Origin: Chitinophaga pinensis
GTDB lineage: Bacteria > Bacteroidota > Bacteroidia > NS11-12g > UBA9320
DNA: 64,000 bases
Assembly: GCA_945907065.1 (NCBI GenBank)
Contig: CAMDSC010000003.1
Span: 1 to 64,000, forward strand
Reading direction: 5' to 3'
In this document: positions 17,065-24,657 of the stretch, piece by piece
Layout: the number at the start of each line of letters is the position of its first letter
Numbering within the stretch: the stretch's first letter is position 1
Notes under the pieces: model-generated
Told to the model about the DNA's origin: nothing
Seen by the model: only the letters and a program-made list of their open reading frames with translations
Databases searched by the model: none
Position numbers and translations under genes: made by a program

Positions 17065-20000
17065 TTAATTCAAGCGGTTTACTTTGAATATTTTGGTAGT
17101 GTTGCCATATTCCACTTTAATAAAATACATACCTACAGCGTAAGTTGTCATATCAATTTGGATTTCAGCAAGACCTCTAAAGTCTGTTTTTTCGGTGGAG
17201 TATAACATCTCACCGGCAATGTTGATGACTTTTACTTTGAGGATAGCTTCACTGTTGGCACTTACACTAACTGTAGTTAAGCCATTGGTTGGGTTTGGAT
17301 AAACATTTACATAATCCACTGAGGCATCTCTCAATCCATCAAGGTCAGCTTCCAATGATTTCTTACCCATTGTTCCACAAGAACCACATACTGTGTTCCA
17401 GTTAAAGTCGGTATAATGAGCATGAACCTTCTCGGCTATATACATACCTGTAAGTGTATTTCTGCTTTTCTTATCACCTTTGGTGTCAAAATGCTCAAGC
17501 GTATACACGTTGGCATTCATGGTTGTACCTTTTTTGATATCCACTTTTTTCTCGGCATAAATAATTACACTGTTATTAGCGGAATTAAACACGTTATCTT
17601 CATGGATTTTAAGTTCTTTACAAAGGAAGATACGGGTGCAACCAGAAAACTTAATGGTTACATTTTTTTGAGTTTCTATTTCATCGGCATAAATATTTTT
17701 GCTGGTGAAAGTAACCGTTGCATCGCTTTCTATATGAATCTTTTTGAATATAGAATCGGTAATGGTAACTGTAGCTCCTTTTTTAACCTTTACATCATCT
17801 CTGTAGTTGCATTTTGAACTGCTACAATGTTTATGTGAAGAACTATTGCAACTTGATTTACAATGGTAATGCTCGTTGTTAGAACAACTTGAACTGCAAT
17901 GGTGGTGATACTTGCTACTGCATTTTGAATCGCAATACGGATTGTATGCAAATGTTGGAAGAGTGACTGAAACAGCGGTTCCTGAATACGCATTAGTTAC
18001 CGAACTTCCTGATTTCACTTCTACTTCATAAGCTTTTGCAAAAGTACCAGATGCAGTTATCAATGAACTTTCATTCACTTCCACTTCGCCTTTAGTTCCT
18101 GTAGAACCAACACCACCCGATTTAACCACAGATTCTTTTTCAATTTCCGCTTCATCGGTTACTAATACAGTATACGAAGACAATAAATCGGTTTGGCTAT
18201 AAGCAACAGTAGTAGAAGCAGATTTGGTACATCCGTAGCTGTTGGTTACAGTTAAAGAATAGGTTCCGCTGGAATATACACTCGTATTGGCAGTAGTAGC
18301 ATTATTGCTCCAAGCATAGGTTACCGTTTCATTAGACGATGAACTTAACACAACCGCTCCACCTTGGCAAAATACCGGTTGAACGCCTTGGCTTATAGAC
18401 AGAGTTGGTATTTTACCAACAACCGTTACTGTTGCATCGCAAGTGCTAGTGTTACCACAAGCATCGGTTACCGTTAAGGTTACAGTATTAGCTCCAATAT
18501 TAGTACAATCAAAGCTGGTTTTGGAAGCACTTATAGTAACTCCACCGCTGCATACATCATAGCTACCGTTATTAATATCATCGGCTGTAATAGAGGCAGC
18601 TCCATTCACTAATGTAATAGTTGCTGCTTTGCAAATTGCAATAGGCGCTGTTTTATCTACAATAGTAAATGTAGCAGTTGTAGTTGATTTATTTCCACAT
18701 GCATCTTTAACAGTAAATGTAACCTCAGCACTACCAGTAGCACCACAATCATCACTTAAATTAGTAAAGTTATGAGACCAAGTAACACCACCACAATCAT
18801 CAGAAGCAGAAGCTCCGCCGTTAGAAGCTAACCATGCATTTAATGCTGAAGTATTTCCAGAACCGTCACATTCAACGGTTGAGTTAGCAGCATCCGTTCC
18901 AATAGTTGGCGCAGTTTTATCTTCGATAGTAAATGTTGCAGTAGTTGTAGATTTATTTCCACAAGCATCTTTAACAGTAAAGGTAACAGTTGCACTTCCT
19001 GTAGCACCGCAATCATTACTTAAATTAGTAAAGTTATGCGACCAAGTAACACCACCACAGGCATCTGTAGCAACAGCGCCGCCATGATTAGCTAACCAAG
19101 CATTTAAGGTAGATGTATTTCCAGCTCCGTCACAGTCTACAGTTGAGTTAGACGCTTGAGTATTAATAACGGGCGCAGTATTGTCTTTTACATGTATAGT
19201 TTGTGTAAAAAATGCAGATGTGTTATTGCAATCATCTTTAAAATTCCATGTTCTTACTCGGATATATTCATTGGAACATAACTGGGTTACAGCCGTGAAG
19301 TTTGAGGCAACTGTCGTGGAAGCCCCAAGTACGTTATCCGTAGATCTAATATAAAAAGCAAAGTTATCATTGGCAGAAACAGATATTGATTTTGTGCCCG
19401 ATTGATTGTTTGCACCTCCGTTATTTGTTAATTGAACGAATGTTCCATTAAGGTAATACCCAAATGGATCATATCTTGGCCCATCCCTATCAGAGGTTAC
19501 ATATGACCAACTGAAAGTAATTGTTCCAGCAGTTGGCACAGAAATTTGGTAACGAGTATCTTTAGTTCCACCTCCACCGCCATCACTTCCGTTTAGTTGA
19601 ATTGAATTAGGAGCAGAAGCAGTGTTTACACTTCCTGAACTACCTGAAGTTTTTATTAAACTCCAATTGGAAGGTGCATATGAACCTGTGAATCCTGTTG
19701 TAGTAATGGTATTATAGGTATTATCAGTAATCAAACTGCGTGTTGGATTAGAAGTACAATTATCCGAAGCACTTGGTCCAGCTGCAAGCGCAGAAGCAAT
19801 TCCTGAAGCATCAGAACATTCAAGATTTGCATCTAGTGAACCAGTCGAGGTTGTAATTGTCGGAGCAGTTTTATCTTCAATAGTAAATGTAGCGGTTGTA
19901 GTAGATGGATTTCCACATGCATCTTTTACTGTAAATATCACTGTTGCACTTCCAGTAGCTCCGCATAAATCGCTTAAGGCTGAGAAATTATTTGTCCAAG

Positions 20001-21156
20001 TTAGATTACCACAAGCATCAGTTGCAGTAGCACCGCCGTTTGAAGCTAACCATGCAGTTAATGCTGAAGTATTTCCGTGACCATCACATTCTACAATTGC
20101 ATCAGAGGCTTGAGTAGTAATTGTAGGTGCGGTATTGTTTATTGTAAATACAGAAGTTCCATACGTCCAAGTAGTAGTTCTTGATACTTCTTCAATATAG
20201 AAATAATATCTTCCTGCTGGGATGCAAGAAGGTAAAGTCCATGTATAGGATCCTGAATTTGCAATATTACTTGCTGCATAAGTTTGAACAGTATAGGCTG
20301 CACTGTCAATTAGAGCTATATTCACATTCCAACTGGTGCACCCTCCATGCCATTTAATGGTAACCTTTGAACACTCTTCTACTGGACTAGTTATTGAATA
20401 ATCAAAAACCAAGTCCCTTAATATCGTAATAGTGTCTTGGCAAGTAGATACATTGTTGTTATTATCCGTAACGGTTAACGTTAAATAATTAGCACCAAAA
20501 TTTGAACAATTAAAAGATGACTTACTAATAGAAAGAGATTTAATTCCACATGCATCTGATGAACCATTGTCCACGTCATTGACAGTGATAGTTGCTGTTT
20601 CAGAATTATCTAGTTGAATTGTTTTGTTTTTGCAAAGTGCATTAGGTTTTTCAGTATCATTTACTGTAATTGTTTGGGTACAAACATCTGTATTGCTGCT
20701 ATTATCAGTTACCTTCCAAATTATGGTTGTTGTTCCTACTGGGTAATCCGCAGTTAAAGCTAAAGCATCACTTCTAATTCCTACTATAGTTTGTACAGCA
20801 CAATTATCAGTAGCTGTGGCATCTGTAATGGTTATGGTTGCAGCACATTTACCTGCATCATTATTAACGATAATATCATTAGGGCATGTAATAACTGGGT
20901 TTTCAGTGTCTGTTACAGTTACATCAAACGTACAAACATCTGTGCCACAAGAATTGGCAGCAGTGGCTGTAACGGTTGTAGTTCCTACCGCAAAGAAACT
21001 TCCGGAGGCTGGAGAGTATGTAATAGTTGGAGAAGTACCTGTTGATGTTGCTTCAAATGTTACGTTAGCACCACATAAACCAGTTGAATTATTTACTGAA
21101 ATATTTGAAGGGCAAGCTATTGTAGGAGTAATACAACATTGTTTGGTAACAACCAC
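17065..21156 (-). CDS. C-terminal 1363-codon portion of the giant surface protein
   Basis: The open frame after the in-frame TAA; its first usable start codon is the GTG at 21156, which is unlikely to be a true start because no signal peptide follows and the coding signal extends 47 codons further upstream. It contains HYR modules (TENPVITCPNDI type), 88-residue repeats with the phrase ATDACGGVTWSHNFTNLS, a jelly-roll-like insert of about 130 residues, an Ig-like module, a Cys/His-rich segment, a beta-helix-like stretch and the sorting domain (VYPNPTNGLTTVSV ... YAVGMYFIKVEYG). Confidence 0.7.
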   Translation of the reverse strand: MVVTKQCCITPTIACPSNISVNNSTGLCGANVTFEATSTGTSPTITYSPASGSFFAVGTTTVTATAANSCGTDVCTFDVTVTDTENPVITCPNDIIVNNDAGKCAATITITDATATDNCAVQTIVGIRSDALALTADYPVGTTTIIWKVTDNSSNTDVCTQTITVNDTEKPNALCKNKTIQLDNSETATITVNDVDNGSSDACGIKSLSISKSSFNCSNFGANYLTLTVTDNNNNVSTCQDTITILRDLVFDYSITSPVEECSKVTIKWHGGCTSWNVNIALIDSAAYTVQTYAASNIANSGSYTWTLPSCIPAGRYYFYIEEVSRTTTWTYGTSVFTINNTAPTITTQASDAIVECDGHGNTSALTAWLASNGGATATDACGNLTWTNNFSALSDLCGATGSATVIFTVKDACGNPSTTTATFTIEDKTAPTITTSTGSLDANLECSDASGIASALAAGPSASDNCTSNPTRSLITDNTYNTITTTGFTGSYAPSNWSLIKTSGSSGSVNTASAPNSIQLNGSDGGGGGTKDTRYQISVPTAGTITFSWSYVTSDRDGPRYDPFGYYLNGTFVQLTNNGGANNQSGTKSISVSANDNFAFYIRSTDNVLGASTTVASNFTAVTQLCSNEYIRVRTWNFKDDCNNTSAFFTQTIHVKDNTAPVINTQASNSTVDCDGAGNTSTLNAWLANHGGAVATDACGGVTWSHNFTNLSNDCGATGSATVTFTVKDACGNKSTTTATFTIEDKTAPTIGTDAANSTVECDGSGNTSALNAWLASNGGASASDDCGGVTWSHNFTNLSDDCGATGSAEVTFTVKDACGNKSTTTATFTIVDKTAPIAICKAATITLVNGAASITADDINNGSYDVCSGGVTISASKTSFDCTNIGANTVTLTVTDACGNTSTCDATVTVVGKIPTLSISQGVQPVFCQGGAVVLSSSSNETVTYAWSNNATTANTSVYSSGTYSLTVTNSYGCTKSASTTVAYSQTDLLSSYTVLVTDEAEIEKESVVKSGGVGSTGTKGEVEVNESSLITASGTFAKAYEVEVKSGSSVTNAYSGTAVSVTLPTFAYNPYCDSKCSSKYHHHCSSSCSNNEHYHCKSSCNSSSHKHCSSSKCNYRDDVKVKKGATVTITDSIFKKIHIESDATVTFTSKNIYADEIETQKNVTIKFSGCTRIFLCKELKIHEDNVFNSANNSVIIYAEKKVDIKKGTTMNANVYTLEHFDTKGDKKSRNTLTGMYIAEKVHAHYTDFNWNTVCGSCGTMGKKSLEADLDGLRDASVDYVNVYPNPTNGLTTVSVSANSEAILKVKVINIAGEMLYSTEKTDFRGLAEIQIDMTTYAVGMYFIKVEYGNTTKIFKVNRLN
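17815..17922 (-). repeat. Three 12-residue C-x4-H-x-H-C-x3 repeats
   Basis: Reading the minus strand, three consecutive 36-bp units encode C-x4-H-x-H-C-x3: first with H at three positions (KYHHHC), second EHYHC, third SHKHC. An extra Cys lies just before (17934-17932) and one just after (17811-17809), for eight Cys and seven His in 42 residues. The rest is mostly Ser, Asn and Lys. Spacing suggests repeated metal sites, but no family is recognised. Confidence 0.75.
18662..19189 (-). repeat. Two tandem 264-bp (88-residue) coding repeats
   Basis: Units 18662-18925 and 18926-19189 are very similar at DNA level; both encode the phrases CDGxGNTSxLNAWLA, GGVTWSHNFTNLS and CGNKSTTTATFTI. A more diverged third copy lies at 19880-20140, and a jelly-roll-like insert separates it from the pair. 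Such repeats suggest duplication within the gene. Confidence 0.8.
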
Positions 21157-21297
21157 TTCATCTGAAGCAGAGCAACCCTCACTGCTTGTGTAGTTAAGCG
21201 TGTAGGTGGTTGTATTAGCTGGACTAGCAACTGGATTAGCAATAGATGCACTTGAAAGTCCTGTAGATGGTGACCAAGAATAGGTGGGTGATTTACC

Positions 21298-24198
21298 TTA
21301 GGTAACGGTTACCCTTGCAAATGAATTTTGTAAAGAACTACTGAGAATATAGCCCAAACATGTATTGTTATTTCCTATTCTGAAACTATTTGATCCACCT
21401 AATTTATAGCCACTTGGATTTGAGAAGTTTATTGTAAACGGCGAATTAGTGCTACCAGAACAATTGCAATTATAATTAGCTGTAAAATTATTTCCACTCA
21501 GAGAATTTAATTTGGTTGTATGGCTCACATTTGAATGGCATTCAACACCAATTGAAAATTCAACTTTTACATTGGTTACAGTAAATGTTCCTTGATCTTG
21601 CCATGTAAAACCTGGTTCTGCCGTACCGCAACCATTGTAATAAGAGCCGCTTGCACATGAAGATGAAGCATTGAAAAGATTTTGAAGTGCTATAAGGTAA
21701 ACTTTTTCTTCTGTTCCACTAAAAGATGAATCCGTTATATTGCTTGTTAGTTGGGCGCCTCCTGAACAAAAAGTTACATCATTTCCAGCACTGACTGTTG
21801 GCTTTGGATTAACTGTGATGGTAACTGTTTGGGTGCTGTTACATCCAAGATTATCGGTTCCTTTTAATGAATAAGTTGTTGTGGTATTAGGACTAACACT
21901 AATTGAACTATTTGTAGAGCTACCTGGAGTCCATTCCCAACTAGGACCAGATGCTGAAGTTGAAAGCGTAACGGAATTTCCAGAACATATTTTGGTAGAA
22001 GAAGCAGTAATTGTAAAGCTAGGATTAGCCTGCGCAGTAACAGTAGCCGTTCCACTCATTGTAACAGAGTTACCACAACCTGAAGCAATATTTACAGCTT
22101 CTACCTGATAGGTCCCCCCCGTTGCATAAACACCAAAGTCAATGGCTGAGCCATTTCCTTCAATATTGTTAAGGTAAACACTGCCAAGTTTTAACCGGTA
22201 AATTACACCTGTTTGAGAACCGCTTAAACCTATATGGACACCCGAATTATTGCCACAATTAACTCCACCACCAGTTACATTAAAAGATTGAGGGGTTTGA
22301 AGTACTGTAACAGTAATGCTTGATGTGATTTTATTAGAACATTGCGCCCCACCAGTAATTTCAACAGTGTATGTGCCTGACTGGGTAACAGTAATTGCTT
22401 GGGTTGTTTCATTTGTACTCCATAGATAAGAGGAGCCACTAACAGCTGTTAATACCAAAGATCCGCCTGAACAAAATGTTGTAACTCCATTAGTTTGCAA
22501 AGCAACCACTTTAACTGTAGCAGTGCATGAAGCTTGGTTATTATAATTATCTGTTACGGTTAGAATAACAGAATTATCACCAATATTAGCGCAAGTAAAT
22601 GAGCTTTTATTAATAGTCATTGATGATATTCCACAAGCGTCTGATGAACCATTATCAATGTCCGAAGCTGAAATTGTAGCATTGCCACTATTATCCAAAT
22701 AAACGGTAATATTTTTACAGCTAGCAGTAGGATTTGTATTGTCAGTAATTGACGAAGTATTTCTATGTACTCTTAATTGATTGTTACTAATACCACTAGT
22801 AGCAATATCTGGTACATAATCTCCGTCTAAATCACCAACTACAATACCACTCACTTCCGCCTGACCAGAATAATCTATTCTAGTTGCAAAAGCTATATTC
22901 CCTGCACCTGAAGACGTATTTTTATAAACTGAAAATAAGTTTTCACCTGATGATTTAGTTGCAATATCTGGAAATCCGTCACCGTTTACATCACCTACTA
23001 CTATACGATAATTTGATGTAGGGCTGGAAATATTAACAGTTGAAGCCATAGAAATAGTGCCAGAGCTAGAGGTGTTCCTGAATATTGACACTTTAGCACC
23101 ACTATAATTATTAGTAACAATGTCCATTTTGCCGTCTTTGTCAAAATCACCAACGAAGGCACGATAAGGATACGATGAATTAGTATTAAAAAATTGGGGT
23201 GAAGCAAAAGAAAAAGTGGTATTACTAGTTCCGGTTGTATTTCTAATAGCTGAAACAAAATCATTATTAGGACAGCTTGTTATAATGTCCGCTAATCCAT
23301 CCCCATCAATGTCACTTATTGCAATTCCCGTTGTACCGTATGTGTTATTTATTACAGTATTTTTCGAAAAACTAATATTCCCAACACTAGAAGTATTAAG
23401 TAAAGTGTAAACATTTCCTGAAAAATCACTAAAAACCAAATCTAATTTTCCATCATTATTTAAATCACCACTTGCCATTTGGTAAGTGCCAGAAGTGCCT
23501 AAAAAAGAACCATCTAGTCCCAATGGACTACCCATTGAAATTGTTCCGGGAGAGCTTAAATTTCTATAAATATAAATTCCATAACCGTTTGAAGTTACTG
23601 CTAAATCTACTTTACCATCACCATCAAAATCACCTGGAGCAATACAACGAGTATTTGATGGAGTAGAAAATGTTTGTTCCGATGCAAATGAAACAGTTCC
23701 TGGAGTACTTAAATTCCTTACAATACTAATTGTATTAGTTGTAAATCCGGTAACCAATAAATCTGGTTTACCGTCAAGATCCATATCTTGAGAAAGCATT
23801 TGATAACCACCAGATACAGATTGTGAATAGGAAACTGTATTATAGGATGTAGTTGAAAGGGTAGCTTCGCAAAATATTCCATTGAAAGGAATCTTTGATA
23901 AACCGATTAAACCACAACCATTTTTTACAGTTATTGGAGAGTAGGTAGCTCCAATTGGAACTTTAACAACCAATGAAAAAGAATTTCCACTTAATATTGT
24001 TGCCATAGTAGCACCAAAAAACACTTTGTTATTTGAGGGTATCGGATCGAAATCACTACCTGATATTGTTACATTGCTACCAATGTATCCAGTAACAGGA
24101 CTAAAACTGCTTACAACAGGCCTTGAACATTGCGCTAAAACATTTTCACTTTGAATAGTAAATAAAGTGATTGCTAAGATGTATATTATTTTTCTCAT
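21298..24198 (-). CDS. N-terminal 966-residue portion of the giant surface protein
   Basis: This is the part that would be made if the TAA is obeyed. It keeps the signal peptide (cleavage likely after VLAQ), the IPT/TIG domain and the FG-GAP-like beta-propeller repeats, whose Asp-rich loops (DMDLDGKPD, DLNNDGKLD, DIDGDGLAD, DFDKDGKMD, DVNGDGFPD) would bind calcium. It loses every downstream HYR module and the T9SS domain, so it could be exported to the periplasm but not sorted to the surface. Its ATG is 3 bp after the stop of the small secreted gene upstream, implying coupled translation. Confidence 0.75.
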   Translation of the reverse strand: MRKIIYILAITLFTIQSENVLAQCSRPVVSSFSPVTGYIGSNVTISGSDFDPIPSNNKVFFGATMATILSGNSFSLVVKVPIGATYSPITVKNGCGLIGLSKIPFNGIFCEATLSTTSYNTVSYSQSVSGGYQMLSQDMDLDGKPDLLVTGFTTNTISIVRNLSTPGTVSFASEQTFSTPSNTRCIAPGDFDGDGKVDLAVTSNGYGIYIYRNLSSPGTISMGSPLGLDGSFLGTSGTYQMASGDLNNDGKLDLVFSDFSGNVYTLLNTSSVGNISFSKNTVINNTYGTTGIAISDIDGDGLADIITSCPNNDFVSAIRNTTGTSNTTFSFASPQFFNTNSSYPYRAFVGDFDKDGKMDIVTNNYSGAKVSIFRNTSSSGTISMASTVNISSPTSNYRIVVGDVNGDGFPDIATKSSGENLFSVYKNTSSGAGNIAFATRIDYSGQAEVSGIVVGDLDGDYVPDIATSGISNNQLRVHRNTSSITDNTNPTASCKNITVYLDNSGNATISASDIDNGSSDACGISSMTINKSSFTCANIGDNSVILTVTDNYNNQASCTATVKVVALQTNGVTTFCSGGSLVLTAVSGSSYLWSTNETTQAITVTQSGTYTVEITGGAQCSNKITSSITVTVLQTPQSFNVTGGGVNCGNNSGVHIGLSGSQTGVIYRLKLGSVYLNNIEGNGSAIDFGVYATGGTYQVEAVNIASGCGNSVTMSGTATVTAQANPSFTITASSTKICSGNSVTLSTSASGPSWEWTPGSSTNSSISVSPNTTTTYSLKGTDNLGCNSTQTVTITVNPKPTVSAGNDVTFCSGGAQLTSNITDSSFSGTEEKVYLIALQNLFNASSSCASGSYYNGCGTAEPGFTWQDQGTFTVTNVKVEFSIGVECHSNVSHTTKLNSLSGNNFTANYNCNCSGSTNSPFTINFSNPSGYKLGGSNSFRIGNNNTCLGYILSSSLQNSFARVTVT

Positions 24199-24201
24199 GG
24201 C

Positions 24202-24657
24202 TTATTTAAATGAAATAGTTACAATTAACATTTTCTCAGGATCATATCCTTTTGGTAGTTCAATAGCTAAATTATCTTTACTATTAGCAGTGCAAGGTGA
24301 AGCAACAATTGCACCTTTTTTAACATCCAATTTTATACTTTTTTGAAATTTATTAGAATTCATGCCATTTTTTACATCAATATCAAATTCAACGGTTTGA
24401 TCTATTGAATTTTCATTAAAGATTCTTAATTCAATATAGTTAGATGTGTCACATTCAACTATTCTATAAAATACATCGATAAATTTAGCGTTGTTTTCCT
24501 GAAGTAAAGTCCAATCTTTAAAAACCTTTTGGTTAGTTGATGGTGGAATTGCCTTGGGTAAACCAGAGCTCGATAATGCTAATAAAAGCATAAAAGTGAA
24601 GAATGGTACTGTCATAATTTTTGACAGTAGAAAACGATTTAGTTGTTTTTTTTTCAT
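24202..24657 (-). CDS. Small secreted protein in the giant surface gene's operon
   Basis: A 151-residue protein of unknown function. The first 40 residues are basic and then hydrophobic, a signal peptide possibly extended by an early basic stretch. The mature part (about 45-151) is beta-prone, with ELRIFNENSIDQTVEFDIDV resembling a carbohydrate- or protein-binding beta sandwich strand pair and two cysteines (near 89 and 118) that could form a disulfide. Its stop is 3 bp before the giant gene's ATG, so the two are almost certainly co-translated. A role in export or display of the large partner is a guess from position. Confidence 0.65.
   Translation of the reverse strand: MKKKQLNRFLLSKIMTVPFFTFMLLLALSSSGLPKAIPPSTNQKVFKDWTLLQENNAKFIDVFYRIVECDTSNYIELRIFNENSIDQTVEFDIDVKNGMNSNKFQKSIKLDVKKGAIVASPCTANSKDNLAIELPKGYDPEKMLIVTISFK

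Follow-up and report, generated by a model that had tools for sequence, protein, structure and literature searches.

Within the window, the 64,000-nucleotide stretch of Bacteroidia DNA analysed here, a gene for a very long surface protein is crossed by one in-frame TAA. The question is whether this codon silenced the gene, is an error of the record, belongs to a reversible switch, is read as sense by the cell or marks the true end of a first gene that is followed by a second. The reading that we favour, with a probability of roughly two in three, is a single very long gene for a T9SS-exported surface protein that was recently inactivated by one nonsense mutation.

A single stop codon divides one long reading frame

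Translation of the gene gave 2378 codons in one frame with codon 967 as the only internal stop (Table 1), in agreement with the first-pass annotation, which had placed two open reading frames in the same phase and found no other stop between them. These two frames, of 966 aa (21298..24198, beginning with ATG) and 1363 aa (17065..21156, beginning with GTG), are separated by 47 codons, and counted from the TAA the frame runs on for 1410 codons without interruption. Because 888 of the 21384 single-base changes possible in the codons of this gene create a stop, an open frame of that length is far beyond chance.

Pfam analysis assigned a TIG domain and FG-GAP repeats to the N-terminal half, which also carries Ig/HYR-like repeats, and HYR repeats together with Por_Secre_tail to the C-terminal half, the latter domain occurring in this half only. 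Por_Secre_tail scored above the curated cut-offs of both collections (47.9 bits against 27 for Pfam, 38.2 against 23 for NCBIfam). Inspection of the sequence and the domain matches concur with the initial statement that the signal peptide is confined to the N-terminal half and the T9SS domain to the C-terminal half; the two do not occur in one translated protein, the TAA separating them.

Table 1. Coordinates of the interrupted gene, its domains and its upstream neighbour in the window
Feature	Position	Strand	Basis or remark
Interrupted surface-protein gene, one frame	17065..24198	-	single internal TAA
Signal peptide MRKIIYILAITLFTIQSENVLAQ, the only one	24130..24198	-	sequence inspection, no dedicated predictor
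TIG domain and FG-GAP repeats	22750..24132	-	PF01833, PF13517, PF01839
Host Ig_7-like domain, first part PKPTVSAGNDVTFCSGGAQLTSNIT	21733..21807	-	Ig_7 match, repeat alignment
Inserted ~144-residue domain, ending ...NSFARVTVT before the stop	21301..21732	-	homologues; low-confidence all-beta model
In-frame TAA (codon 967), where homologues of the inserted domain conserve a tyrosine	21298..21300	-	homologues
Host Ig_7-like domain, second part GKSPTYSWSPSTGLSS...VVVTKQ, past the stop	21139..21297	-	Ig_7 match, repeat alignment
C-terminal part orthologous to the G006:C11 gene: HYR repeats, C-terminal module, T9SS sorting domain	17065..21135	-	
T9SS type A sorting domain (Por_Secre_tail)	17068..17310	-	Pfam and NCBIfam
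Small secreted-protein gene directly upstream	24202..24657	-	counterpart precedes the G006 orthologue, 29% identity

Two local features of the C-terminal half were also observed. Near the C-terminus, positions 17800-17937 encode a stretch rich in His, Cys, Ser and Lys (YCDSKCSSKYHHHCSSSCSNNEHYHCKSSC...), whose length and sequence vary in the orthologue and which, judged from its residues, could bind metal. At 18644-19151, a 264-base unit encoding HYR-like repeats is present in nearly two tandem copies, whose 84% matches suggest a fairly recent internal duplication.

The stop lies where a domain inserted into an Ig-like domain ends

The 47 codons past the stop had been described as Ig-like sequence, and GKSPTYSWSPSTGLSSAS... 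was indeed recognised as the latter half of an Ig_7-like domain. Residues 823-966, the 144 that precede the TAA, form a separate domain rather than an ordinary Ig strand. This domain sits within one Ig_7-like domain (21139-21807), the first half of which, PTVSAGNDVTFCSGGAQLTSNIT, ends 144 codons ahead of the TAA, while GKSPTYSWSPSTGLSSASIANPVASPANTTTYTL follows the insert. When the two flanks are joined, they give a clean alignment with uninterrupted Ig repeats of this and other genomes; the Ig_7 match across the junction is weak (16.5 bits against a cut-off of 27.3) and spans positions 3-79 of 84. The position of the stop at the exit of a nested domain had escaped the first-pass annotation, as had the dissimilarity of the N-terminal half to that of the orthologue and the breakage of a second family member, both described below.

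A single-sequence search with the insert against 395 genomes of the phylum and GTDB and IMG-VR contigs yielded no convincing homologue, and the search of a 97-genome set of relatives returned the host Ig part only. The first homologue was obtained from G075, of the same order (36% identity), and a two-row profile built from it led to further genomes of the class; the same profile also matched two GTDB records, L247, which is the G075 contig, and L246, whose domain sequence is identical to that of G041. Once two spurious matches had been discarded, the set comprised 15 homologous domains, drawn from 11 genomes of the class besides this one. A 16-row profile run on the phylum sample matched the query alone. 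Pfam gave no match to the inserted domain of the window and matched single members of the 16 only at E > 0.03. Structure prediction from a three-row alignment gave all-beta models whose pLDDT values, 46 and 54, did not warrant a fold search, and the inserted domain is predicted to be all-beta at low confidence.

Each of the 15 homologous domains belongs to an open frame (about 1040-2740 codons) that continues past the point in question, and 14 of them have a tyrosine at the position of the TAA (VTVTY, VTVNY, VTVDY and similar). Homologues that genuinely end at this codon had been named at the outset as the outcome that would speak against an interruption; since every homologous domain continues, homologues do not end at the TAA position. 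Relative to them the stop is premature, as in a nonsense pseudogene, and the product loses a domain that its localisation requires, the signal peptide lying before the stop and the T9SS domain past it. The original suggestion that the stop uncouples export from surface sorting is strengthened by this continuation through a tyrosine.

The nesting itself recurs among the homologues. G726, G725, G515 and G583 carry the domain within an Ig-like domain, inserted at the same position as in the present gene. G729 has two copies in HYR domains; for the one tested, HYR reaches 39.6 bits across the junction and 29.3 when the right flank is scored by itself. In G790, where the domain is located near the last strand of Ig_7 domains, the corresponding Ig_7 scores are 53.0 bits across the junction and 46.1 for the left part by itself. 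This unnamed domain of ~144 residues was thus found inside Ig_7 (in two different places) and HYR, in long T9SS proteins from several families of the class, and was also seen directly after signal peptides. Import of the stop together with the inserted domain, as the end of another gene, was considered and rejected, given that the homologous domains read on through a Tyr and show the same kind of nesting.

The C-terminal half has an intact orthologue and the lesion is recent

The closest relative of the C-terminal half is an intact gene of 1854 aa from the same genus (G006:C11). Comparison of the two over 1256 codons revealed 85% identity, with dN of 0.105, dS of 0.90 and dN/dS of 0.12, and in view of this ratio the C-terminal half was a functional protein during most of its history. 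Reliable homology starts at residue 1022, 55 codons past the TAA. Over the C-terminal ~1350 residues the 85% identity holds, whereas the N-termini (21136-24198 here, L067 4437-5970 in the relative) are completely unlike, with FG-GAP repeats in the former and an unrelated domain in G006. No orthologue of the N-terminal half was found in the genus, so that the full-length intact gene as such has not been seen, which counts against the favoured reading. As judged from this comparison, the N-terminal module may have been replaced while the small secreted-protein gene upstream was retained.

The lesion is recent, because the rest of the frame is intact and holds no second stop. With 888 single-step nonsense paths, a neutral change of 1% would bring in about 3 further stops, and none is present.

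A second gene of the same family is broken

The genome (G000; 2.70 Mb, 63 contigs, 99.9% complete) contains 139 T9SS tails, in our own judgement, rather than by comparison, an unusually large cargo set for 2.7 Mb. The stretches around 117 of the 139 were checked for a signal-peptide-like start with a rule based on hydrophobicity, failures and late hits being inspected as well; this rule took the place of a dedicated predictor. In seven cases the frame extends beyond the stretch or the contig, leaving 110 assessable genes, 108 complete and two broken; the broken ones, lacking a signal-peptide start, are the present gene and C8:70159. The latter (L070 508..3899, G000:C8:67007-70398) is a T9SS gene with a related C-terminal module and a one-base frameshift near L070:2400, and its G006 orthologue is one intact frame of 1145 aa (L071 1712..5149).

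The two broken genes are the only members of one C-terminal module family in the genome, and breakage therefore affects 2 of 2 family members against 0 of 108 others (Fisher p = 1.7e-4, for an association noticed post hoc). G006 has two assessable members, both of them intact, and a third that a contig end truncates. The housekeeping genes mfd, tuf, rpoB and rpoC of the window are intact. Widespread decay of T9SS genes was considered and rejected: 15 stretches, mostly with short frames, proved to be contig-end cuts or small signal-peptide genes.

An error of the record is the main rival explanation

The main rival to a nonsense mutation is an error of sequencing, consensus or assembly, such that the organism has a sense codon here and the gene is intact. 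The first-pass annotation had listed this together with inactivation, and of these inactivation fits best, the error being compatible with the locus and on balance improbable, though it deserves real weight. One base only is at issue in an otherwise perfect frame, its position is that of a tyrosine conserved in homologues, and the assembly is a draft of 63 contigs; misassemblies at repeats are known in draft Bacteroidia genomes (PMC5771137). The site, however, lies outside homopolymers and near-identical repeats, and the region has no second copy in the genome. The present gene and C8:70159 share 43% protein identity, which is too different for reads of the two to be confused. Base errors are expected to scatter randomly, and because random errors would not be expected to pick both members of one family among 110 T9SS genes, the family pattern favours real gene loss. 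On these grounds, and from one genome of the species, we infer that the TAA is present in the organism and not only in the record.

Phase variation, recoding and two separate genes are unlikely

A surface antigen subject to reversible phase or clonal variation, with an intact gene in some cells, would account for a surface protein of which two family members are off simultaneously. This was among the options first put forward, and it finds no sequence basis at the site, so that we give it little credence. Neither lesion has a simple-sequence tract or flanking inverted repeats, the inverted repeats near the TAA being chance-level pairs only, and neither an invertible segment at the site nor a silent cassette copy in the genome was detected. 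The closest recombinase gene observed lies about 11 kb from the site and resembles an ordinary Xer-type integrase. A palindromic motif common to both lesions, RGYAACSGTTRCY, was examined as a candidate and rejected. With 7 genomic sites as compared with 4 for the reversed control it is not clearly enriched, and it shows no link to other breaks, none of its five remaining sites lying at a broken T9SS gene. A literature search on phase variation, T9SS and premature stops found no paper.

Recoding or readthrough, likewise offered as an option, would yield the full-length protein, for example with tyrosine at UAA. It agrees with the intact frame past the stop, with purifying selection on that frame for most of its history and with the replaced residue being tyrosine, but it is opposed by the tRNA set, by stop-codon usage and by the absence of other cases, and we regard it as very improbable. 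No suppressor with a UUA anticodon is present among the 33 tRNAs found; TAA terminates 23 of the 32 genes counted in the window; the 117 T9SS frames hold no other in-frame stop, the second broken gene having a frameshift instead; and orthologous and paralogous genes do without recoding. The locus resembles genes of alternative codes or readthrough (TAA reassignment) in that the coding signal continues beyond an in-frame TAA, and differs from TAA-reassignment genes in having neither a suppressor tRNA nor further cases in the genome, where TAA serves as a terminator. Basal readthrough of the TAA is possible and needs no special mechanism. Equally far-fetched, in our estimate, is a more elaborate version in which the insert family nests repeatedly in Ig_7 (two loops) and HYR of T9SS proteins and the TAA is usefully read through, with both periplasmic and surface forms as the outcome.

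That the N-terminal half truly ends at the TAA and the C-terminal half is expressed alone can practically be dismissed. In its favour, the G006 orthologue shares the C-terminal half and not the N-terminal one. Against it, the stop falls within the host Ig domain with its two halves on either side, homologous domains never end there, the C-terminal half is devoid of the signal peptide that all 108 other complete T9SS genes possess, and the G006 orthologue is one gene.

Discussion

In the reading that we prefer, inactivation by nonsense mutation, the stop would have replaced the tyrosine that closes the inserted beta-domain within the Ig-like domain. Translation would then give a 966-residue fragment that has the signal peptide and would enter the periplasm without a C-terminal T9SS signal. 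The remaining 1410 codons bear the sorting signal and, even if translated separately, would have no export signal of their own. The T9SS C-terminal domain acts as an outer-membrane export signal (PMC4804311), and by analogy the 966-residue product would presumably be halted in the periplasm for want of it. The product is probably non-functional.

The gene resembles nonsense pseudogenes of adhesin and T9SS cargo genes in its single premature stop within a conserved frame, which parts the export and sorting signals; it is unlike the known ones in that the lesion coincides precisely with the end of a nested domain and is known from an assembly rather than from reads. With T9SS type A cargo (TIGR04183 / PF18962) it shares a signal peptide, Ig-like, HYR and FG-GAP repeats and a C-terminal sorting domain, but here the two protein ends lie on opposite sides of a stop codon. 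As to Ig_7 (PF19081) and HYR (PF02494), the host is Ig_7-like here and HYR in a homologue, interrupted by the unnamed domain of ~144 residues.

For a giant surface gene with a conspicuous in-frame stop, recent loss of function is thus the simplest explanation, and this lineage appears to be in the process of losing a T9SS adhesin family. The more interesting by-product is the inserted domain, which represents a family with no Pfam entry that nests in other beta-sandwich domains; such nested insertion conceals host Ig and HYR domains from automatic annotation.
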